A DNA stretch of 38,637 nt, taken from contig JAAWBG010000046.1 of assembly GCA_022792535.1 (NCBI GenBank), positions 1 to 38,637 of the forward strand. The letters run 5' to 3'. Source of the stretch: Lachnospiraceae bacterium. Its GTDB lineage: Bacteria > Bacillota > Clostridia > Lachnospirales > Lachnospiraceae. The position numbers and the translations under genes are program-made. Below the pieces are notes generated by a model. It saw only the letters and a program-made list of their open reading frames with translations, was not told the DNA's origin and ran no database searches. Each line of letters starts with the position of its first letter. The first letter of the stretch is position 1. Of the stretch, positions 22,861-38,525 are shown one piece after another.

Positions 22861-23053
22861 TGCTGCGCCGAGCAGAATTGCGAAGCAATATTTTACCTCT
22901 TGTGCGAGCGCGCATATTATTTTTATCTTATAGGAATATACTTTCACGCTTTAGCGGGACAAGGTCTTTCTTATAAGACAAGAAAGAATCCTGCTTCGCA
23001 GGATTCTCCGCCTGCGGCGGGCCGCTCTTGCGGTTCATTTCCTTTCCGCCGCA
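22861..23053. repeat. Multi-hairpin intergenic repeat, copy A (81-bp core 22973-23053)
   Basis: A run of small palindromes fills the gap between the converging permease and PBP genes: ATTGC-GAA-GCAAT, GTGCGAGCGC (22902-22911), a longer imperfect stem (22927-22977), AGAATCCTGC/GCAGGATTCT, CCGCC/GGCGG and CCGC/GCGG. The 81-bp core matches copy B (38391-38471) at 77 of 81 positions. It ends 6 bases from the PBP stop codon. TGCGGCGG inside the core can pair either with the adjacent CCGCC or with CCGCCGCA at the end of the core, giving two alternative folds. Confidence 0.85.
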
Positions 23054-32786: not shown

Positions 32787-32911
32787 ATAAAATCCTCCAT
32801 TTACAAATCTTATCATTTTCTATACCATATTTTGCAGAACGGTTCGACTGCGGCTACAAATCTTACCGCCGGCAATTATGGTACTATTATCTGTAAATGG
32901 AGGCATTTTAT
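32787..32911. repeat. Inverted repeat copying the spoVT ribosome-binding region
   Basis: ATAAAATCCTCCATTTACA (32787-32805) is mirrored by TGTAAATGGAGGCATTTTAT (32892-32911), with one inserted base. A second inner pair is TACCATA (32823-32829) and TATGGTA (32877-32883). The left arm holds the spoVT Shine-Dalgarno. The right arm faces the other way but has no start codon at proper distance. Confidence 0.75.
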
Positions 32912-33020
32912 ACCTTAAATTTATTTTTCATTTGTATATAGATTAAAGTGCTTTTGACACCCTGACTATATATGAAAAAATCAGAAACAATCATCAAAAC
33001 GGAAACCCTGTTTTTATACA

Positions 33021-33049
33021 TTGCCCATTTCCTATCCACATATTATAAT
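33021..33049 (+). promoter_or_regulatory. Probable original promoter of the module 2 regulator gene
   Basis: TTGCCC (33021-33026), 17 bases, TATAAT (33044-33049). The -10 and following bases TATAATCATTG occur again at 33341-33351, next to the regulator's Shine-Dalgarno. Without the 286-bp insertion and one copy of the 11-bp repeat, the promoter would sit directly before the gene. Confidence 0.68.
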
Positions 33050-33054
33050 CATTG

Positions 33055-33340
33055 TAGACAATTGCGAAACTGCCTAATGATCAAAATTTCATGTACAATT
33101 ATCACAGTTTCTCTCAAATATTTTCTTCATACAAAAGGCCGAAATGCTGGACGCACCAAACATTCCAGCGAGCCTCTGAATACAAAGAATCATACTCAGC
33201 AAAGGCTTCCATGCTTCTTTGAGTCTCGCTTCCATGGTGCTGGAATGCATTTCTCACCTTTTGTATGAGAAAATATTTATACTCAAATTTTTTGAATTGT
33301 ACATGAAATTTGGAAAAATATTGAGTTTCGCAATTACTTA
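33055..33340. mobile_element. 286-bp fold-back (MITE-like) element with 11-bp target duplication
   Basis: Direct repeats TATAATCATTG (33044-33054 and 33341-33351) flank a near-palindrome with no gene. Terminal inverted repeats are ATTGCGAAACT (33061-33071) and AGTTTCGCAAT (33324-33334). Inner pairs are AAATTTCATGTACAATT (33084-33100 with 33295-33311) and a 22-23 base pair at 33116-33138 with 33257-33278, with weaker pairing to the centre near 33197. No transposase is encoded, so movement would need one in trans. It lies in the 5' UTR of module 2. Confidence 0.8.
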
Positions 33341-33348
33341 TATAATCA

Positions 33349-34035
33349 TTGGTAGAAAAGGAGGAATGTCTTATCAATACAATCCTTGTACTGGAAGATG
33401 ATCTGGAATTAAATCATACAATCTGCACCTCTCTGGAAAAAGAAAATTACCGTGTCTTTTCCGCCGATACCTGTAAAAAAGGACAGGCTCTGGCCAGAAG
33501 CAGCACCTTTGACCTGGCCATACTGGATATCAATCTGCCGGATGGCGATGGATTTGGATTCTGCCAATGGCTCAAAGCCAGAAGCAGCGCTTCTGTGCTG
33601 TTTCTCTCAGCGCGGGACCTGGAAGAGGACGTTTTAACCGGGTATGACATGGGCGCAGAGGACTATGTGACAAAACCTTTTTCCATGAAGATCCTGTTAA
33701 AAAAAATCTCAATCATCTTATCCAGAGAAATTCCAAATCAAAATATTTATGACGACGGCTTTTTGAGAATTGATTTTGAACTTGGACTGGTACAGACTGG
33801 ACAAGAAAATTGTCCCATCACGCCTACGGAATACCGTATTTTAAAAAAACTGGTGGAACACAAAGGGCAGCTTTTGACTTATTCCCTCCTGTTGGATTCT
33901 CTATGGGAAGAGGGAGTACAGCTTTTCGATAAACACGCTCTGGCTGTGAACATCAATCGGCTGAGGAAAAAAATTGAAACAGAGGAACACGTTTATATTT
34001 CAAATGTATACGGAATGGGGTATCTATGGAAATAA
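33349..34035 (+). CDS. OmpR/PhoB-family response regulator (module 2), start codon uncertain
   Basis: The protein has a receiver domain (LEDD pocket, phosphoacceptor Asp in LAILDINLPDGDGFGF, Lys in YVTKPFS) and a winged helix (TPTEYRILKKLVEHKGQLLT ... HALAVNINRLRKKI ... VYGMGYLWK). The interval given begins at a TTG (33349) that has no Shine-Dalgarno. The only strong one, AAAAGGAGG (33356-33364), lies after it, 8 bases before an in-frame ATC at 33373, and the protein would then read (M)NTILVLEDD, a usual family start. An ATG at 33366 is in another frame and stops after 11 codons. Start at 33373 is my preferred reading. The gene ends 10 bases inside the kinase gene. Confidence 0.9.
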   Translation: MVEKEECLINTILVLEDDLELNHTICTSLEKENYRVFSADTCKKGQALARSSTFDLAILDINLPDGDGFGFCQWLKARSSASVLFLSARDLEEDVLTGYDMGAEDYVTKPFSMKILLKKISIILSREIPNQNIYDDGFLRIDFELGLVQTGQENCPITPTEYRILKKLVEHKGQLLTYSLLLDSLWEEGVQLFDKHALAVNINRLRKKIETEEHVYISNVYGMGYLWK

Positions 34036-34952
34036 CATTGCTTTGTATATTTTTTCTCACGGGAATCATTTCCTGGCTGCTTTGGAAAAACTACTGTCTG
34101 AAACGGGATATTTACGACTTCACCCAAAAGCTGGATCAAAGTCTGAACCAGCTTCTAAACAATGAACAATTAAGTAAAACCATTGATCAGAAAGACGATC
34201 TATGGGGCATGGTATCAGAAAGACTAAATCGGATCTCTCATCTTTACGCCCGGAAAAATCAAGAAATTTCTGAAGAAAAAGAAAACTTAAAAGAACTGGT
34301 GTCAGACATCTCACATCAGACCAAAACCCCTCTTGCCAACATAAAATTGTACCTGGAACTCCTTTTAGAGGCGAAGGATGGAACATCTCCCCAGGAATCT
34401 CTGGAAAAAATAAACAGCCAGGTGGAAAAACTGGATTTCCTGCTTCAGAGCATGGTCAAACTATCTCGTCTGGAAACAGGAACCATAAAAATACAAAAAT
34501 CTGAAGTTCCCATTGCAGACACCCTTGCAGAGGCCATTGGAGGGGCGATTCCCAAAGCAGATCAGAAACACATTTCCATCCAGGTTTCCTATGATGAAAA
34601 TCTGCGGTTACATCACGATAAAAAATGGACGGCAGAAGCTATTTTTAATCTGCTGGATAATGCTGTCAAATACACAGAAGAGGCAGGGAAAATCCATATT
34701 TCCGTAAAGAAAGAAACCATTTTTACAAAGATCAGTATCTCAGATACGGGAAAGGGAATTCCCCTAGAAAGACATGGGACTATTTTTACCCGTTTTTACC
34801 GAGAACCTGAAATCCACGATAACGAGGGAATCGGCATCGGCCTGTATCTGGCCAGAAAAATCATATCTATGCAGAACGGATATATTAAGGTGGATTCCGA
34901 GGTTGGTAAGGGCAGTTCCTTTCACATTTATCTGCCAAATAAAATGGAATAA
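34026..34952 (+). CDS. Sensor histidine kinase with one membrane helix (module 2)
   Basis: The 308-residue kinase has a single N-terminal membrane helix (about 4-20) and no extracellular domain, so it probably senses through another protein such as the co-encoded transporter. The H-box is VSDISHQTKTPLANIKLYLE with H97. ATPase motifs are the N-box LLDNAVKYTEEAG, G1 ISDTGKGI, F-box IFTRFYRE and G2 GIGIGLYLARKI. Its start overlaps the regulator stop by 10 bases, so translation is coupled. Compared with the module 1 kinase, it lacks the second helix. Confidence 0.93.
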   Translation: MEITLLCIFFLTGIISWLLWKNYCLKRDIYDFTQKLDQSLNQLLNNEQLSKTIDQKDDLWGMVSERLNRISHLYARKNQEISEEKENLKELVSDISHQTKTPLANIKLYLELLLEAKDGTSPQESLEKINSQVEKLDFLLQSMVKLSRLETGTIKIQKSEVPIADTLAEAIGGAIPKADQKHISIQVSYDENLRLHHDKKWTAEAIFNLLDNAVKYTEEAGKIHISVKKETIFTKISISDTGKGIPLERHGTIFTRFYREPEIHDNEGIGIGLYLARKIISMQNGYIKVDSEVGKGSSFHIYLPNKME

Positions 34953-35068: not shown

Positions 35069-35746
35069 ATGGAAAATATCATTGTAAAAACAGAATCCCT
35101 AAAAAAATATTATGAAATAGGCCCGCACACCGTAAAAGCTTTGGATGGCGTAGATCTGGAAATAAGGGAACGGGAATTTATCTCGATTATCGGCAAATCA
35201 GGCTGCGGAAAAAGTACCCTTCTTCATATGATCGGGGGATTAGATTCTCCCACCAGCGGAACCGTCATCGTGGACGGTATGAATCTTTCCAAGATGAATC
35301 AGGAACAGCTGGCACTTTTCAGAAGAAGAAAGGCAAGCTTCATTTTCCAGCAATACAACCTGATTCCAGATCTGAATGTCTATGACAATATTATTTTTCC
35401 CCTGGAACTGGACGGAGGGCACATTGATACCTCTCTGATCCAGGAACTTTTAACAGCGCTTCATCTGGAAGACAAAGCCGGCATGTTTCCTTCCATGCTT
35501 TCCGGAGGCGAACAGCAGCGGACTGCCATTGCAAGAGCGCTGGCAGTCAAACCGGCCATCCTTCTGGCCGACGAACCCACCGGGAATCTGGACACTTCTG
35601 CCAGCCACGAGGTCATCGGGCTTTTAAAAGTCATTGCCAAAAAGTACCGGCAGACTTTGATTGTGATCACCCACGATCTGGACATTGCACAGATGGCAGA
35701 CCGAACGATCCAATTACAAAATGGAAAAATATGGAGAGGGGAGTGA
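35069..35746 (+). CDS. ABC transporter ATP-binding protein (module 2, MacB/LolD-like)
   Basis: The 225-residue protein has Walker A GKSGCGKST (42-50), Q-loop IFQQYNLIPDLNVYDN, signature LSGGEQQRTAIARAL, Walker [14 protein letters not shown] and H-loop VITHD. It is the same class as the module 1 ATPase and clearly related to it, but diverged across its length. The permease gene starts 5 bases after the stop, with its Shine-Dalgarno inside the end of this gene. GGAGGAACCGCC precedes the ATG. Confidence 0.95.
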   Translation: MENIIVKTESLKKYYEIGPHTVKALDGVDLEIREREFISIIGKSGCGKSTLLHMIGGLDSPTSGTVIVDGMNLSKMNQEQLALFRRRKASFIFQQYNLIPDLNVYDNIIFPLELDGGHIDTSLIQELLTALHLEDKAGMFPSMLSGGEQQRTAIARALAVKPAILLADEPTGNLDTSASHEVIGLLKVIAKKYRQTLIVITHDLDIAQMADRTIQLQNGKIWRGE

Positions 35747-35751
35747 TTTCT

Positions 35752-38283
35752 ATGCTGGCAAACAACAATAAACCTATTGTAAACAAATTGGCGAAAAACA
35801 CGATCCGGTCAAACAAACGCCAGTTTGTCATTCTCTTTTTCACCATAGCTCTGTCTGCCTTCCTTCTGTTTTCCATTTTTACCATCGGACTGACCTACCT
35901 GAACCTAAGCAGGCTGCAAAATACCCGTTTGTACGGTTCTGAATGCGATATTGCTCTTATCAATGGATTTACAGAAGGACAAAAGGATCTTATAAAAAAA
36001 CATCCCAAGATACAGAGTATCGGAACCCAGGCCTACTCTGGCCATGTCAAGAGCACCGATGCAGATCCCACGGTAAATGCCGGACTGTTATGGTGCGACG
36101 AGACTTTCTGGGAAGTCCAGAAAGCTCCGGCGAGAACTCAAATGAAAGGAGATTATCCTCAGGATGAACATGAACTTCTGGCCACCAGAGAAGTTCTGGA
36201 AGCATGCGGTAAAAATGATCTGTCTGTGGGCAGCCATTTCTCCATGACTTACGAGGACAATACAGGCATTCACACCAAAGAGTTTACCATCAGCGGAATC
36301 TGGTCCGGCTATGGCAAAGATAAATCTAACTTCTATGTCTCCGAAGACTTTTATAACCAATCTGGTTATCAATTGGAATCAAACGGGATTCTGCAGATCA
36401 AATTCAAGAACAATTATGTTACAGGCAGGACCATAAAAGAATTAGAAGACAGTCTTACGCTTTCCCCTCAGCAGGTTTTTCAGCCTTCTGATTATATTGA
36501 AAGATCTCTGACAATCCTGATGGCTGTATGGGGCTTATGCCTTATGATCTGCCTCAGCGCTTATCTGCTGATCTATAACATTCTCTACTTGTCCGTTTCT
36601 GGAAAAGTGCGCTATTATGGCCTGCTGCAGACTTTGGGAATGACAAAAAAACAGTTAACGCTGTTAATACGAAGGCAAACCTTTCTGGTGGGAATCTCTG
36701 GGATGGCCGCCGGTATTCTGCTGGCCTTGTTTATTTCTCTGTTTTTGACGCCCTATATTCTGAATCTTCTGGGAATCTCTTTTACCTCTGAAGAAATACA
36801 ATTTCACCCATTGGTATTATTTTTGAGTATTCTAACCACAGGAACCGCTGTCTTATGGGGAATACAAACACCTCTTCACATTGCCGCAGATGTAACGCCT
36901 GTGGAGGCTGCAAAATACCGCCTGCACAGACTGGCTCCCTGTAGGAATAGATTTTTCAGATTAAAAAAAATATCCAAAACTGCGCAGCTGAATACGCCTG
37001 GCCCAAAGAAAAACCTGTACTGGAGCATGGCAAAAGACCAACTCCAAAAAGACAAAAAGAAAACCTCTGTGATCTATCTGTCCCTGGCCTTCAGTCTCAT
37101 TGTCTTTTACTGTCTGACTGCCATCATAGACAGTTATGGAAAACGAACCGTCTATCCCAACTACTGGAATGCAGACATGATCCTAAATAACAATACCCAG
37201 ACCACAGAAGATATGGCTTCTCTCCAGTCTGCTATGGATGATTCCTTTTTATCTGATCTGGAAAAAATCGAAGGAATTGACGACTTTCATGTTCTTCGGG
37301 GATTTCCTGTTATTTTCCCTTATGACAGGTATGGATTCTCAGACTTTTGGATCAAGGGGTATACCAGCTTAAAGCCTTATCTGTCATCCGCCAAGACCCT
37401 TTTAGACTATCAGAACCACCCACAGAAGTATTATGGCATGATAAAGGGAATTGACGAGGCCGAATTTGACTATCTCAACGAATCTCTGGGAAACCCCATA
37501 GACAAACAAGACTTCTTGCAGGGAAATACCGCCATTGTGCAATACGCAGGATTTGAGATTCCAGAAGAATGGATCGGGCGCACCGTCTCATTTACCACTG
37601 AAAATCTGACACAGGACATCCAAATTGGAGCAGTCAGTTACGAGAGCTACTATGGCGCCTCTGTGAACGCAGGTCCAAATCTGGTGGTCAGCGAGGACTA
37701 TCTTAAAACCATAAGATCCGAAGAACCTGACATTCTAAGTCTTATTATAAAATACCAGCAGCCCTACAGTGAAAAAACCGAACAGGAGGTAAAAAGCCTG
37801 CTGAAGAAAAGCCCTCGCTGCAGCGATCTATCTTATCTCTCAAAATATGATGAAATGAAACAGATCCAGGATTCTCAGGGCTCTATGTTCCAAATCGGCA
37901 CAGTAATCTCTCTTCTTCTGCTGTCTGTCGGCATGCTGAACTATGGAAACACCATGGCAGGCAGCATCCAGCATCGAAGGCTGTCCTTCTCCATTATGGA
38001 AAGTGTGGGAATGTCTGGAAAACAGATTGTAAAATTACTGATACGGGAGGGAATCTTATATGCGGCCGGCTCTGTCTTTCTCACACTGACAGTGGGAACC
38101 GGTATCACCTATCTTGTTTTTCAGTCCATGAATTATATGAAAATACCATTTGCCATTCCTGTTCTTCCCCTGCTGTGTGCAGTTATTTTAGTCACGATCT
38201 TATGCATGGCAGTACCAGTCATTACTTACCGAAAAATAGTGGGAAACCGCCCTATGGCAGAACGGCTGCGGGAATATGAATAA
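35752..38283 (+). CDS. FtsX-type ABC transporter permease, 843 residues (module 2)
   Basis: The protein has an N-terminal helix (about 25-45) after a basic start (NTIRSNKRQF), a first extracellular domain (about 50-250), three helices (about 255-370) with VRYYGLLQTLGMTKKQLTLL, a helix at about 440-460, a second extracellular domain (460-710) and three C-terminal helices with LSFSIMESVGMSGKQIVKLL. This is the same two-unit FtsX layout as in module 1 but with smaller outer domains. The ATG at 35752 has GGGGAG 8 bases upstream, so the ATG at 35731, inside the ATPase gene, is not used. The substrate is unknown. A hairpin block follows the stop. Confidence 0.9.
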   Translation: MLANNNKPIVNKLAKNTIRSNKRQFVILFFTIALSAFLLFSIFTIGLTYLNLSRLQNTRLYGSECDIALINGFTEGQKDLIKKHPKIQSIGTQAYSGHVKSTDADPTVNAGLLWCDETFWEVQKAPARTQMKGDYPQDEHELLATREVLEACGKNDLSVGSHFSMTYEDNTGIHTKEFTISGIWSGYGKDKSNFYVSEDFYNQSGYQLESNGILQIKFKNNYVTGRTIKELEDSLTLSPQQVFQPSDYIERSLTILMAVWGLCLMICLSAYLLIYNILYLSVSGKVRYYGLLQTLGMTKKQLTLLIRRQTFLVGISGMAAGILLALFISLFLTPYILNLLGISFTSEEIQFHPLVLFLSILTTGTAVLWGIQTPLHIAADVTPVEAAKYRLHRLAPCRNRFFRLKKISKTAQLNTPGPKKNLYWSMAKDQLQKDKKKTSVIYLSLAFSLIVFYCLTAIIDSYGKRTVYPNYWNADMILNNNTQTTEDMASLQSAMDDSFLSDLEKIEGIDDFHVLRGFPVIFPYDRYGFSDFWIKGYTSLKPYLSSAKTLLDYQNHPQKYYGMIKGIDEAEFDYLNESLGNPIDKQDFLQGNTAIVQYAGFEIPEEWIGRTVSFTTENLTQDIQIGAVSYESYYGASVNAGPNLVVSEDYLKTIRSEEPDILSLIIKYQQPYSEKTEQEVKSLLKKSPRCSDLSYLSKYDEMKQIQDSQGSMFQIGTVISLLLLSVGMLNYGNTMAGSIQHRRLSFSIMESVGMSGKQIVKLLIREGILYAAGSVFLTLTVGTGITYLVFQSMNYMKIPFAIPVLPLLCAVILVTILCMAVPVITYRKIVGNRPMAERLREYE

Positions 38284-38525
38284 TTGGTTTTATCTTATAG
38301 AACAAAGTGGGCAGTCGCTTCAGCGACATATTCCTTTTGCACGAGTGCGCATATTATTTTTCTCTTATAGGAAATTCGAAGGAATTTCCTATAAGACAAG
38401 AAAGAATCCTGCTCCGCAGGATTCTCCGCCTGCGGCGGACCGCTCCAGCGGTTCATTTCCTTTCCGCCGCAGTGCGATAATTTTATTTTCTTATAGGAAA
38501 TCCGAAGGAATTTCCTATAAGGATT
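38284..38525. repeat. Multi-hairpin intergenic repeat, copy B (81-bp core 38391-38471)
   Basis: After the permease stop come GTCGCT/AGCGAC (38314-38327), GCACGAGTGC (38339-38348), a perfect 14-bp palindrome with loop GAAG (38364-38395), the 81-bp core shared with copy A, and a second 32-base palindrome with one mismatch (38490-38521), which is a near copy of the first. No gene is seen. The short frames crossing this block are judged non-coding. Confidence 0.85.

Follow-up and report, generated by a model that had tools for sequence, protein, structure and literature searches.

The window, by which we mean the whole stretch of 38,637 nucleotides analysed here, carries four consecutive plus-strand genes that we call module 2: a response regulator (33373-34035; PF00072, PF00486), a sensor histidine kinase (34026-34952; PF00512, PF02518), an ABC transporter ATPase (35069-35746; PF00005) and an FtsX-type permease (35731-38283; PF02687). 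This succession of regulator, kinase, ATPase and FtsX permease is a feature of the BceRSAB-type module, which we take module 2 to be. A repeat made up of 93 bp at 92% identity and pieces of 41-45 bp lies 3′ of the permease gene in both transporter modules of the window (22896-23053 and 38333-38521). Upstream of the regulator, a 286-bp fold-back element occupies 33055-33340 on the plus strand, between two exact copies of the 11-bp direct repeat TATAATCATTG at 33044-33054 and 33341-33351, an arrangement described in the earlier note and here given its exact repeat coordinates; these are the two plus-strand occurrences of the repeat in the window, and the minus strand has none. The element is bounded by the terminal inverted repeats TAGACAATTGCGAAACT (33055-33071, plus strand; two differences from the family consensus TAGGTAATTGCGAAACT) and TAAGTAATTGCGAAACT (33324-33340, in minus-strand reading; one difference), and a repeat search aligned its hairpin arms at 33060-33138 and 33257-33335 (79 nt, 72% complementary without gaps). 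Two listed ORFs overlap it, of 98 and 87 aa, both extending past the element, which thus has no transposase coding capacity. The left duplication overlaps the TATAAT of a candidate sigma-70 promoter (TTGCCC-17-TATAAT, 33021-33049, plus strand, 10/12 matches). Downstream of the element, 16 nt from its end and 5 nt from the right duplication, the plus strand reads AAAGGAG at 33357-33363, continued as AAAGGAGG at 33357-33364; this is the Shine-Dalgarno sequence of the regulator and, by comparison with the family copies, the putative target motif.

The regulator frame holds no ATG, GTG or TTG at the usual distance 3′ of the Shine-Dalgarno sequence (33365-33378), and an in-frame TTG at 33349 precedes that sequence, within the right duplication. 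From the aligned starts of orthologues, the likely start codon is a non-canonical ATC at 33373-33375 on the plus strand, 32 nt from the element end and 8 nt 3′ of GGAGG. Five orthologous regulators share 77-83% identity across their aligned portion; the codons they have in place of this one are ATC (genome G010), ATT (G002, G025 and G028) and GTG (G023), and three orthologues have an in-frame stop two codons ahead of the aligned start, which together suggests that the start codon is non-canonical and conserved. An out-of-frame ATG overlaps the aligned start in five of the six regulators.

A search of the host draft genome (3.19 Mb, 150 contigs, 92.7% complete) with the element returned 76 matching pieces, some of them almost full-length with 75-96% identity and others short forms consisting of an arm only, and 13 of 29 genomes of the genus also gave a match. 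With an E of 1e-10, a wider search across the family matched three of 200 genomes (two belong to this genus), a weak negative at three candidates scored per genome; a plasmid search with the element gave no match. We sampled 72 loci, comprising 12 from the host including the window, 20 from G025, 20 from G013, eight from G026, six from G028 and six from four other genomes. The loci of the other genomes were the best-scoring copies among the matches listed, and the counts exclude host copies truncated by a contig end (L019-L024) or of the short form (L026-L040). Both terminal inverted repeats could be mapped in 68 of the 72 loci, and 55 of these 68 copies lie between target duplications of 9-13 bp with at most one mismatch (41 perfect), compared with 95/3400 (2.8%) when the right flanks were shuffled among copies with the same freedom of end position. 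Seven G026 copies occupy the same sites as G025 copies, six recognized by the duplication and the seventh by one matching flank, and some insertions therefore appear to be inherited. Moreover, a genus-wide search with the joined flanks of four host insertions gave uninterrupted matches for three: L015 (in G001, G010, G025, G026 and others), L014 (in G002, G001, G004, G009, G016 and others) and L012 (in G025 and G026), while no genus match crossed the junction of L011.

The claim of the earlier note that the element is mobile and made an 11-bp target duplication is borne out by differing duplications elsewhere in the genome and the genus and by the three other empty sites. An empty site was sought at module 2 as well; no empty counterpart was found among the genus genomes searched, and the 3.65-kb loci of the five regulator orthologues gave no spoVT match and no element end within about 1500 nt upstream. 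Covarying arms at a single locus shared by all relatives, without empty sites, had been named as speaking against mobility; the arms do covary, as described below, but the copies lie at differing sites and empty sites exist elsewhere. Taken together, the multi-copy family, the target duplications and the strong fold (z -9.8) indicate that the 286-bp element is, by its sequence features, a MITE, that is, a gene-less non-autonomous transposon. A string like AAAGTGC(CAAAGGCGC)TTTTGACACCC was also seen by eye to recur near MITEs (window 32945-32965, L009, L017 and L154), and is perhaps another small repeat.

The flanks of the copies share a motif at a nearly fixed distance. Among the 68 end-mapped copies, 61 have AAAGGAG, matched at six or more of its seven positions, beginning 13-19 nt outward of one of the two ends (56/61 without the G026 duplicates), and all seven positions match in 39; random positions in these loci give 2.1% per side. 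Of the 61 copies, 41 have the motif on the left side of the element and 20 on the right. A sequence logo shows a [G/A]AAAGGAG motif beside an AT-rich duplication free of consensus, and of the copies that fail the motif search, these seven being counted together with the eight insertion-sequence misses described below, most have another G-rich stretch as judged by eye. In a search limited to starts 2-15 nt after the motif, 55 of the 61 motif-bearing copies proved to have a start codon 26-35 nt from the element; the window copy is not among them because its likely start is ATC. We also measured the distance from duplication to start, free of the 2-15-nt limit, in intergenic regions reconstructed with a simple ORF script. 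In regions of at least 100 bp, 23 of 31 copies fell at 16-24 nt against 1.83 expected if insertion were uniform, or 20 of 27 against 1.63 without G026. AAAGGAG is rarer at other gene starts, with 11/29 in the window and 12/58 in the MITE loci. Random positions, other gene starts and the uniform insertion model served as the controls; another insertion-sequence family and canonical IS1182 gave three and five matches, too few copies for this use. The -10 box, where the earlier note had placed the insertion, was rejected as a target, with the gene-side AAAGGAG constant and the AT-rich duplications devoid of a -10 consensus, and the duplicated -10 at module 2 looks incidental.

In G025, a genome that is nearly complete, TIR-like hits without a MITE partner led to a candidate parent, an insertion sequence of 1756-1759 bp with the ends TAGGTAATTGCGAAACA and CGTTTCGCAAACGCCTA. 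Its 16 terminal bases are common to the MITE consensus, from which the window ends differ at two and one places, and its transposase has 485 aa. DUF772 (PF05598) scored above cut-off in all four transposases tested. The curated IS1182 model NF033551 matched them at E 1e-13 to 1e-18, with 67.4, 65.2, 50.5 and 55.6 bits against a cut-off of 270, and we therefore do not file the insertion sequence in IS1182; it acts like a targeted transposon. DDE_Tnp_1 was matched below cut-off, and the invariant residues D147, D288, D292 and E427 could be the DDE residues. No sequence relative of the transposase was found in the PDB, and a phage search with it gave no match.

Both ends were mapped for 14 copies of this insertion sequence in G025, and by eye 13 of them have the motif beyond the right end, on the 5′ side of the transposase gene, with its GG 18-21 nt away; the fourteenth abuts a tandem copy in the same orientation. 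No pair of ends was obtained at the G025 loci L101 and L203. At L201 and L208, tandem copies have one target duplication between them, showing that the insertion sequence also lands beside itself. In G005, all nine copies examined among 10 matches have a Shine-Dalgarno-like motif beside the same end (by eye), six with transposases at about 77-80% identity and three at about 50%. When named genomes were scanned with four transposases, 153 relatives came up, of which 80 were kept; these come from Lachnospiraceae, other Clostridia and unclassified bacteria. The named genomes may overlap the genus set, and several contribute more than one locus. A recognizable right end with 40 nt of flank was present at 65 of the 80 loci (15 lacked a recognizable end). 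At 57 of the 65 the motif stood 13-18 nt from the end, and 38 had a duplication; the eight misses, inspected by eye, were a tandem (L251), a motif-less locus (L279) and six loci where a different G-rich stretch, for example AGGAGG, was present.

MITE and transposase co-occur loosely: nine of the 13 MITE genomes gave a transposase match, many of them fragments, and four gave none, while seven genus genomes had a transposase match without the MITE. In the host draft genome (92.7% complete) no relative of the transposase was found at E 1e-20 or 1e-3, and the ORF lists of its contigs C97 and C148, read by eye, show no transposase ORF near the MITE copies. Since the MITE and the insertion sequence have 16 terminal bases, duplication length and target in common, the MITE is most likely moved in trans by a DUF772/IS1182-like insertion-sequence clade.

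We then considered what is recognized at the target. Three copies of the G025 insertion sequence, at L200, L202 and L205, interrupt ORFs at the motif, with KGEE at AAGGGAGAGGAG in L205, VLKGA at CTGAAAGGAGC in L202 and the motif on the antisense strand in L200; in all three, an open frame runs on either side of the copy and the residues at the joint are duplicated, the pieces having been read separately and unjoined. Because these copies interrupt ORFs at the motif, the DNA motif itself is probably read, and we infer that the transposase recognizes it. Purifying selection that removes insertions in genes is certain to play a part, and most copies are indeed intergenic. The pattern could even come from near-random insertion with survival just upstream of Shine-Dalgarno sequences, insertions in coding regions or promoters being harmful: 24 of the 63 copies with a computable gap lie in gaps shorter than 50 bp, where any insertion is near a Shine-Dalgarno sequence. 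We regard this as quite improbable, as it conflicts with the 23 of 31 copies at 16-24 nt in the longer intergenic regions, with the motif at the same end in 13/13 G025 insertion-sequence copies with a judgeable flank, with the three ORF-internal copies that are still at the motif, and with target motifs stricter than the other Shine-Dalgarno sequences of the same sequences. That targeting follows translation or transcription initiation, through the ribosome, RNA polymerase or promoter melting, instead of a DNA motif would agree with the start codon found in 55 of the 61 motif-bearing copies. It is no more probable than random insertion, given that GAGAGGAG or AAAGGAG is the site of the ORF-internal insertion-sequence copies L200, L202 and L205, in L200 on the strand antisense to its ORF, and that the MITE copies L018 and L172 lie at motifs with no ORF of 30 codons starting in reach, where a small gene could be missed. 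At L179, a gene start is present on the other side of the copy.

We therefore consider it highly probable that a MITE and a DUF772/IS1182-like transposase reading AAAGGAG account for the locus. On this model, the transposase would read a motif near RAAAGGAG in DNA, and the element would be joined about 16-22 bp upstream of the GG of the motif with a duplication of 9-13 bp. Insertions would come to sit just 5′ of the Shine-Dalgarno sequence because the target motif equals its consensus. Most surviving insertions would then lie some 30 nt ahead of the start codon and leave the ribosome-binding site intact, standing between the Shine-Dalgarno sequence and the promoter or, within an operon, the gene before it. 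The module 2 regulator would thereby gain a 286-nt hairpin leader, with read-through and continued translation expected.

The predicted RNA fold of the element has -94.9 kcal/mol; 200 shuffles averaged -50.5 (sd 4.5) and none of them reached its value, which gives a z of -9.8. Covariation was analysed in 40 of the 68 end-mapped copies, after removal of the long forms, the duplicates in G026 and some of the divergent copies. The consensus has 72 pairs, with 97.8% of cells paired in the same alignment from which the structure was derived. Changes on both sides occurred at 26 pairs against a shuffle mean of 13.1, and in 158 cells against 44.1, cell counts that relatedness inflates; slid controls gave 3-6 covarying pairs, and eight of the nine pairs of the inner helix 9 covary. 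The number of further pair types was not exceptional (48 against a shuffled mean of 45.4, with 52/500 shuffles as high). The inner covariation argues that conservation of the fold extends past the ends which the transposase would need, and this conservation may come about through an RNA function, cruciform DNA or arm-to-arm copying. In the inner stems (alignment columns 86-201), G-U occurs in 41 cells at nine pairs and A-C in six cells at five pairs, versus 21 cells at 11 pairs and 25 cells at 17 pairs, respectively, in the outer stems, a hint that one strand of the inner stems is selected as RNA, in counts inflated by relatedness and with mixed insertion orientation. Strong covariation that includes the inner stems would also be expected of a host regulatory RNA, such as a riboswitch-like leader, that is not a mobile element at all. 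We find this scarcely credible, since the copies stand before unrelated genes in both orientations (41 left, 20 right) and have target duplications and empty sites. In Rfam, no family was matched at the gathering cut-off; the best of three weak matches, to a microRNA family, had E 0.32, far below the cut-off.

We next asked what the insertion means for module 2 expression, which the earlier note had thought possibly silenced or brought under a new control. A scan of 32800-33450 gave three promoter-like sites against 3.4 in shuffles; the promoter that had been pointed out, TTGCCC-17-TATAAT, is thus present as described and at the same time not above chance. The suggestion that the hairpin might terminate transcription was not upheld, as no intrinsic-terminator-like site was found in the same scan. 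Proteins downstream of MITE copies were scanned at E 1e-40 for 20 of 55, and 10 of the 20 matched some family; the genes 3′ of copies named by NCBIfam were fmt, pfkB, rlmB, rsmI (16S rRNA C1402 methyltransferase), hydF and hemL (glutamate-1-semialdehyde aminomutase), and a truncated protein downstream of another copy matched cobT just below cut-off. Modelled exposure of the Shine-Dalgarno sequence averaged 0.498 over the family with the element, compared with 0.369 for the native upstream sequence (higher in 37/60, p 0.004) and 0.394 for shuffled elements (39/60 higher, p 0.002). At the window copy it was lower with the element, 0.264 versus 0.352. This drop, the very stable hairpin and the TATAAT of a 10/12 promoter within the left duplication agree with an insertion into the -10 box that silenced module 2 or put it under hairpin control. 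Against this stand the promoter score at chance level, the duplications without a -10 consensus, the lack of a terminator in the scan and the family members before housekeeping genes, and we judge such an outcome unlikely. Silencing in particular is unlikely because the insertion leaves the ribosome-binding site and start region intact and because fmt, hemL and rlmB also stand behind copies of the element. We infer, with somewhat better than even confidence, that module 2 expression continues.

Transposons directed at a short motif shared by so many genes are, to our knowledge, few. Yeast Ty3 is a targeted transposon with a defined, harmless insertion place relative to genes. The element described here has such a place too, as does Tn7 (attTn7, named in the available text of a review, PMC10969869), but its address is a short motif at many gene starts and not a single site or a protein-marked promoter. 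Correia elements, the MITEs of Neisseria, are likewise short, have terminal inverted repeats, lie mainly immediately upstream of genes and are transcribed, and promoters, an IHF site and RNase III cutting are reported for them in the same text (PMC10969869). They differ in their hosts and in that this text describes no insertion anchored at a fixed distance to the Shine-Dalgarno sequence, the words "Shine-Dalgarno" and "ribosome" being absent from it; we set them apart by description and not by their ends. BOX, RUP and SPRITE of the pneumococcus are also small Firmicute repeats with secondary structure, and BOX and RUP are presumed to be mobilized in trans; in the available text of PMC3049150, however, their proposed partners are ISSpn2 (BOX) and IS630-Spn1 (RUP), and no such target rule is given. 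The IS1182/DUF772 transposases are alike in PF05598 above cut-off and in the E values of NF033551, and the candidate parent departs from IS1182 in scoring at about 50-67 bits versus 270, in its 9-13 bp duplications and in its Shine-Dalgarno motif target. Among the titles and opening abstract lines found in the open-access literature, none described an insertion sequence or MITE targeting the Shine-Dalgarno sequence; one may have been reported elsewhere or in ISfinder.

Taken together, a MITE family and a related transposase-coding element usually stand about 30 bases before gene starts and appear to home on the DNA motif of the ribosome-binding site. More tentatively, and as a possibility that we do not hold to be the likelier one, a transposon clade found across Lachnospiraceae and other Clostridia may have evolved to read the Shine-Dalgarno sequence as its address, a safe haven at translation initiation, and the selected, self-contained RNA fold of the MITE may insulate the ribosome-binding site, so that the copies would spread as transferable 5′ leaders without disabling the genes behind them. 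If the transposase reads the Shine-Dalgarno sequence, this would explain how a compact genome can hold many insertion-sequence copies with most genes spared. It would also provide a clear target rule and a tool for placing DNA into 5′ leaders. Part of the 5′ leaders of these bacteria would then be transposon-made, which would matter for the reading of their promoters and RNA structure.
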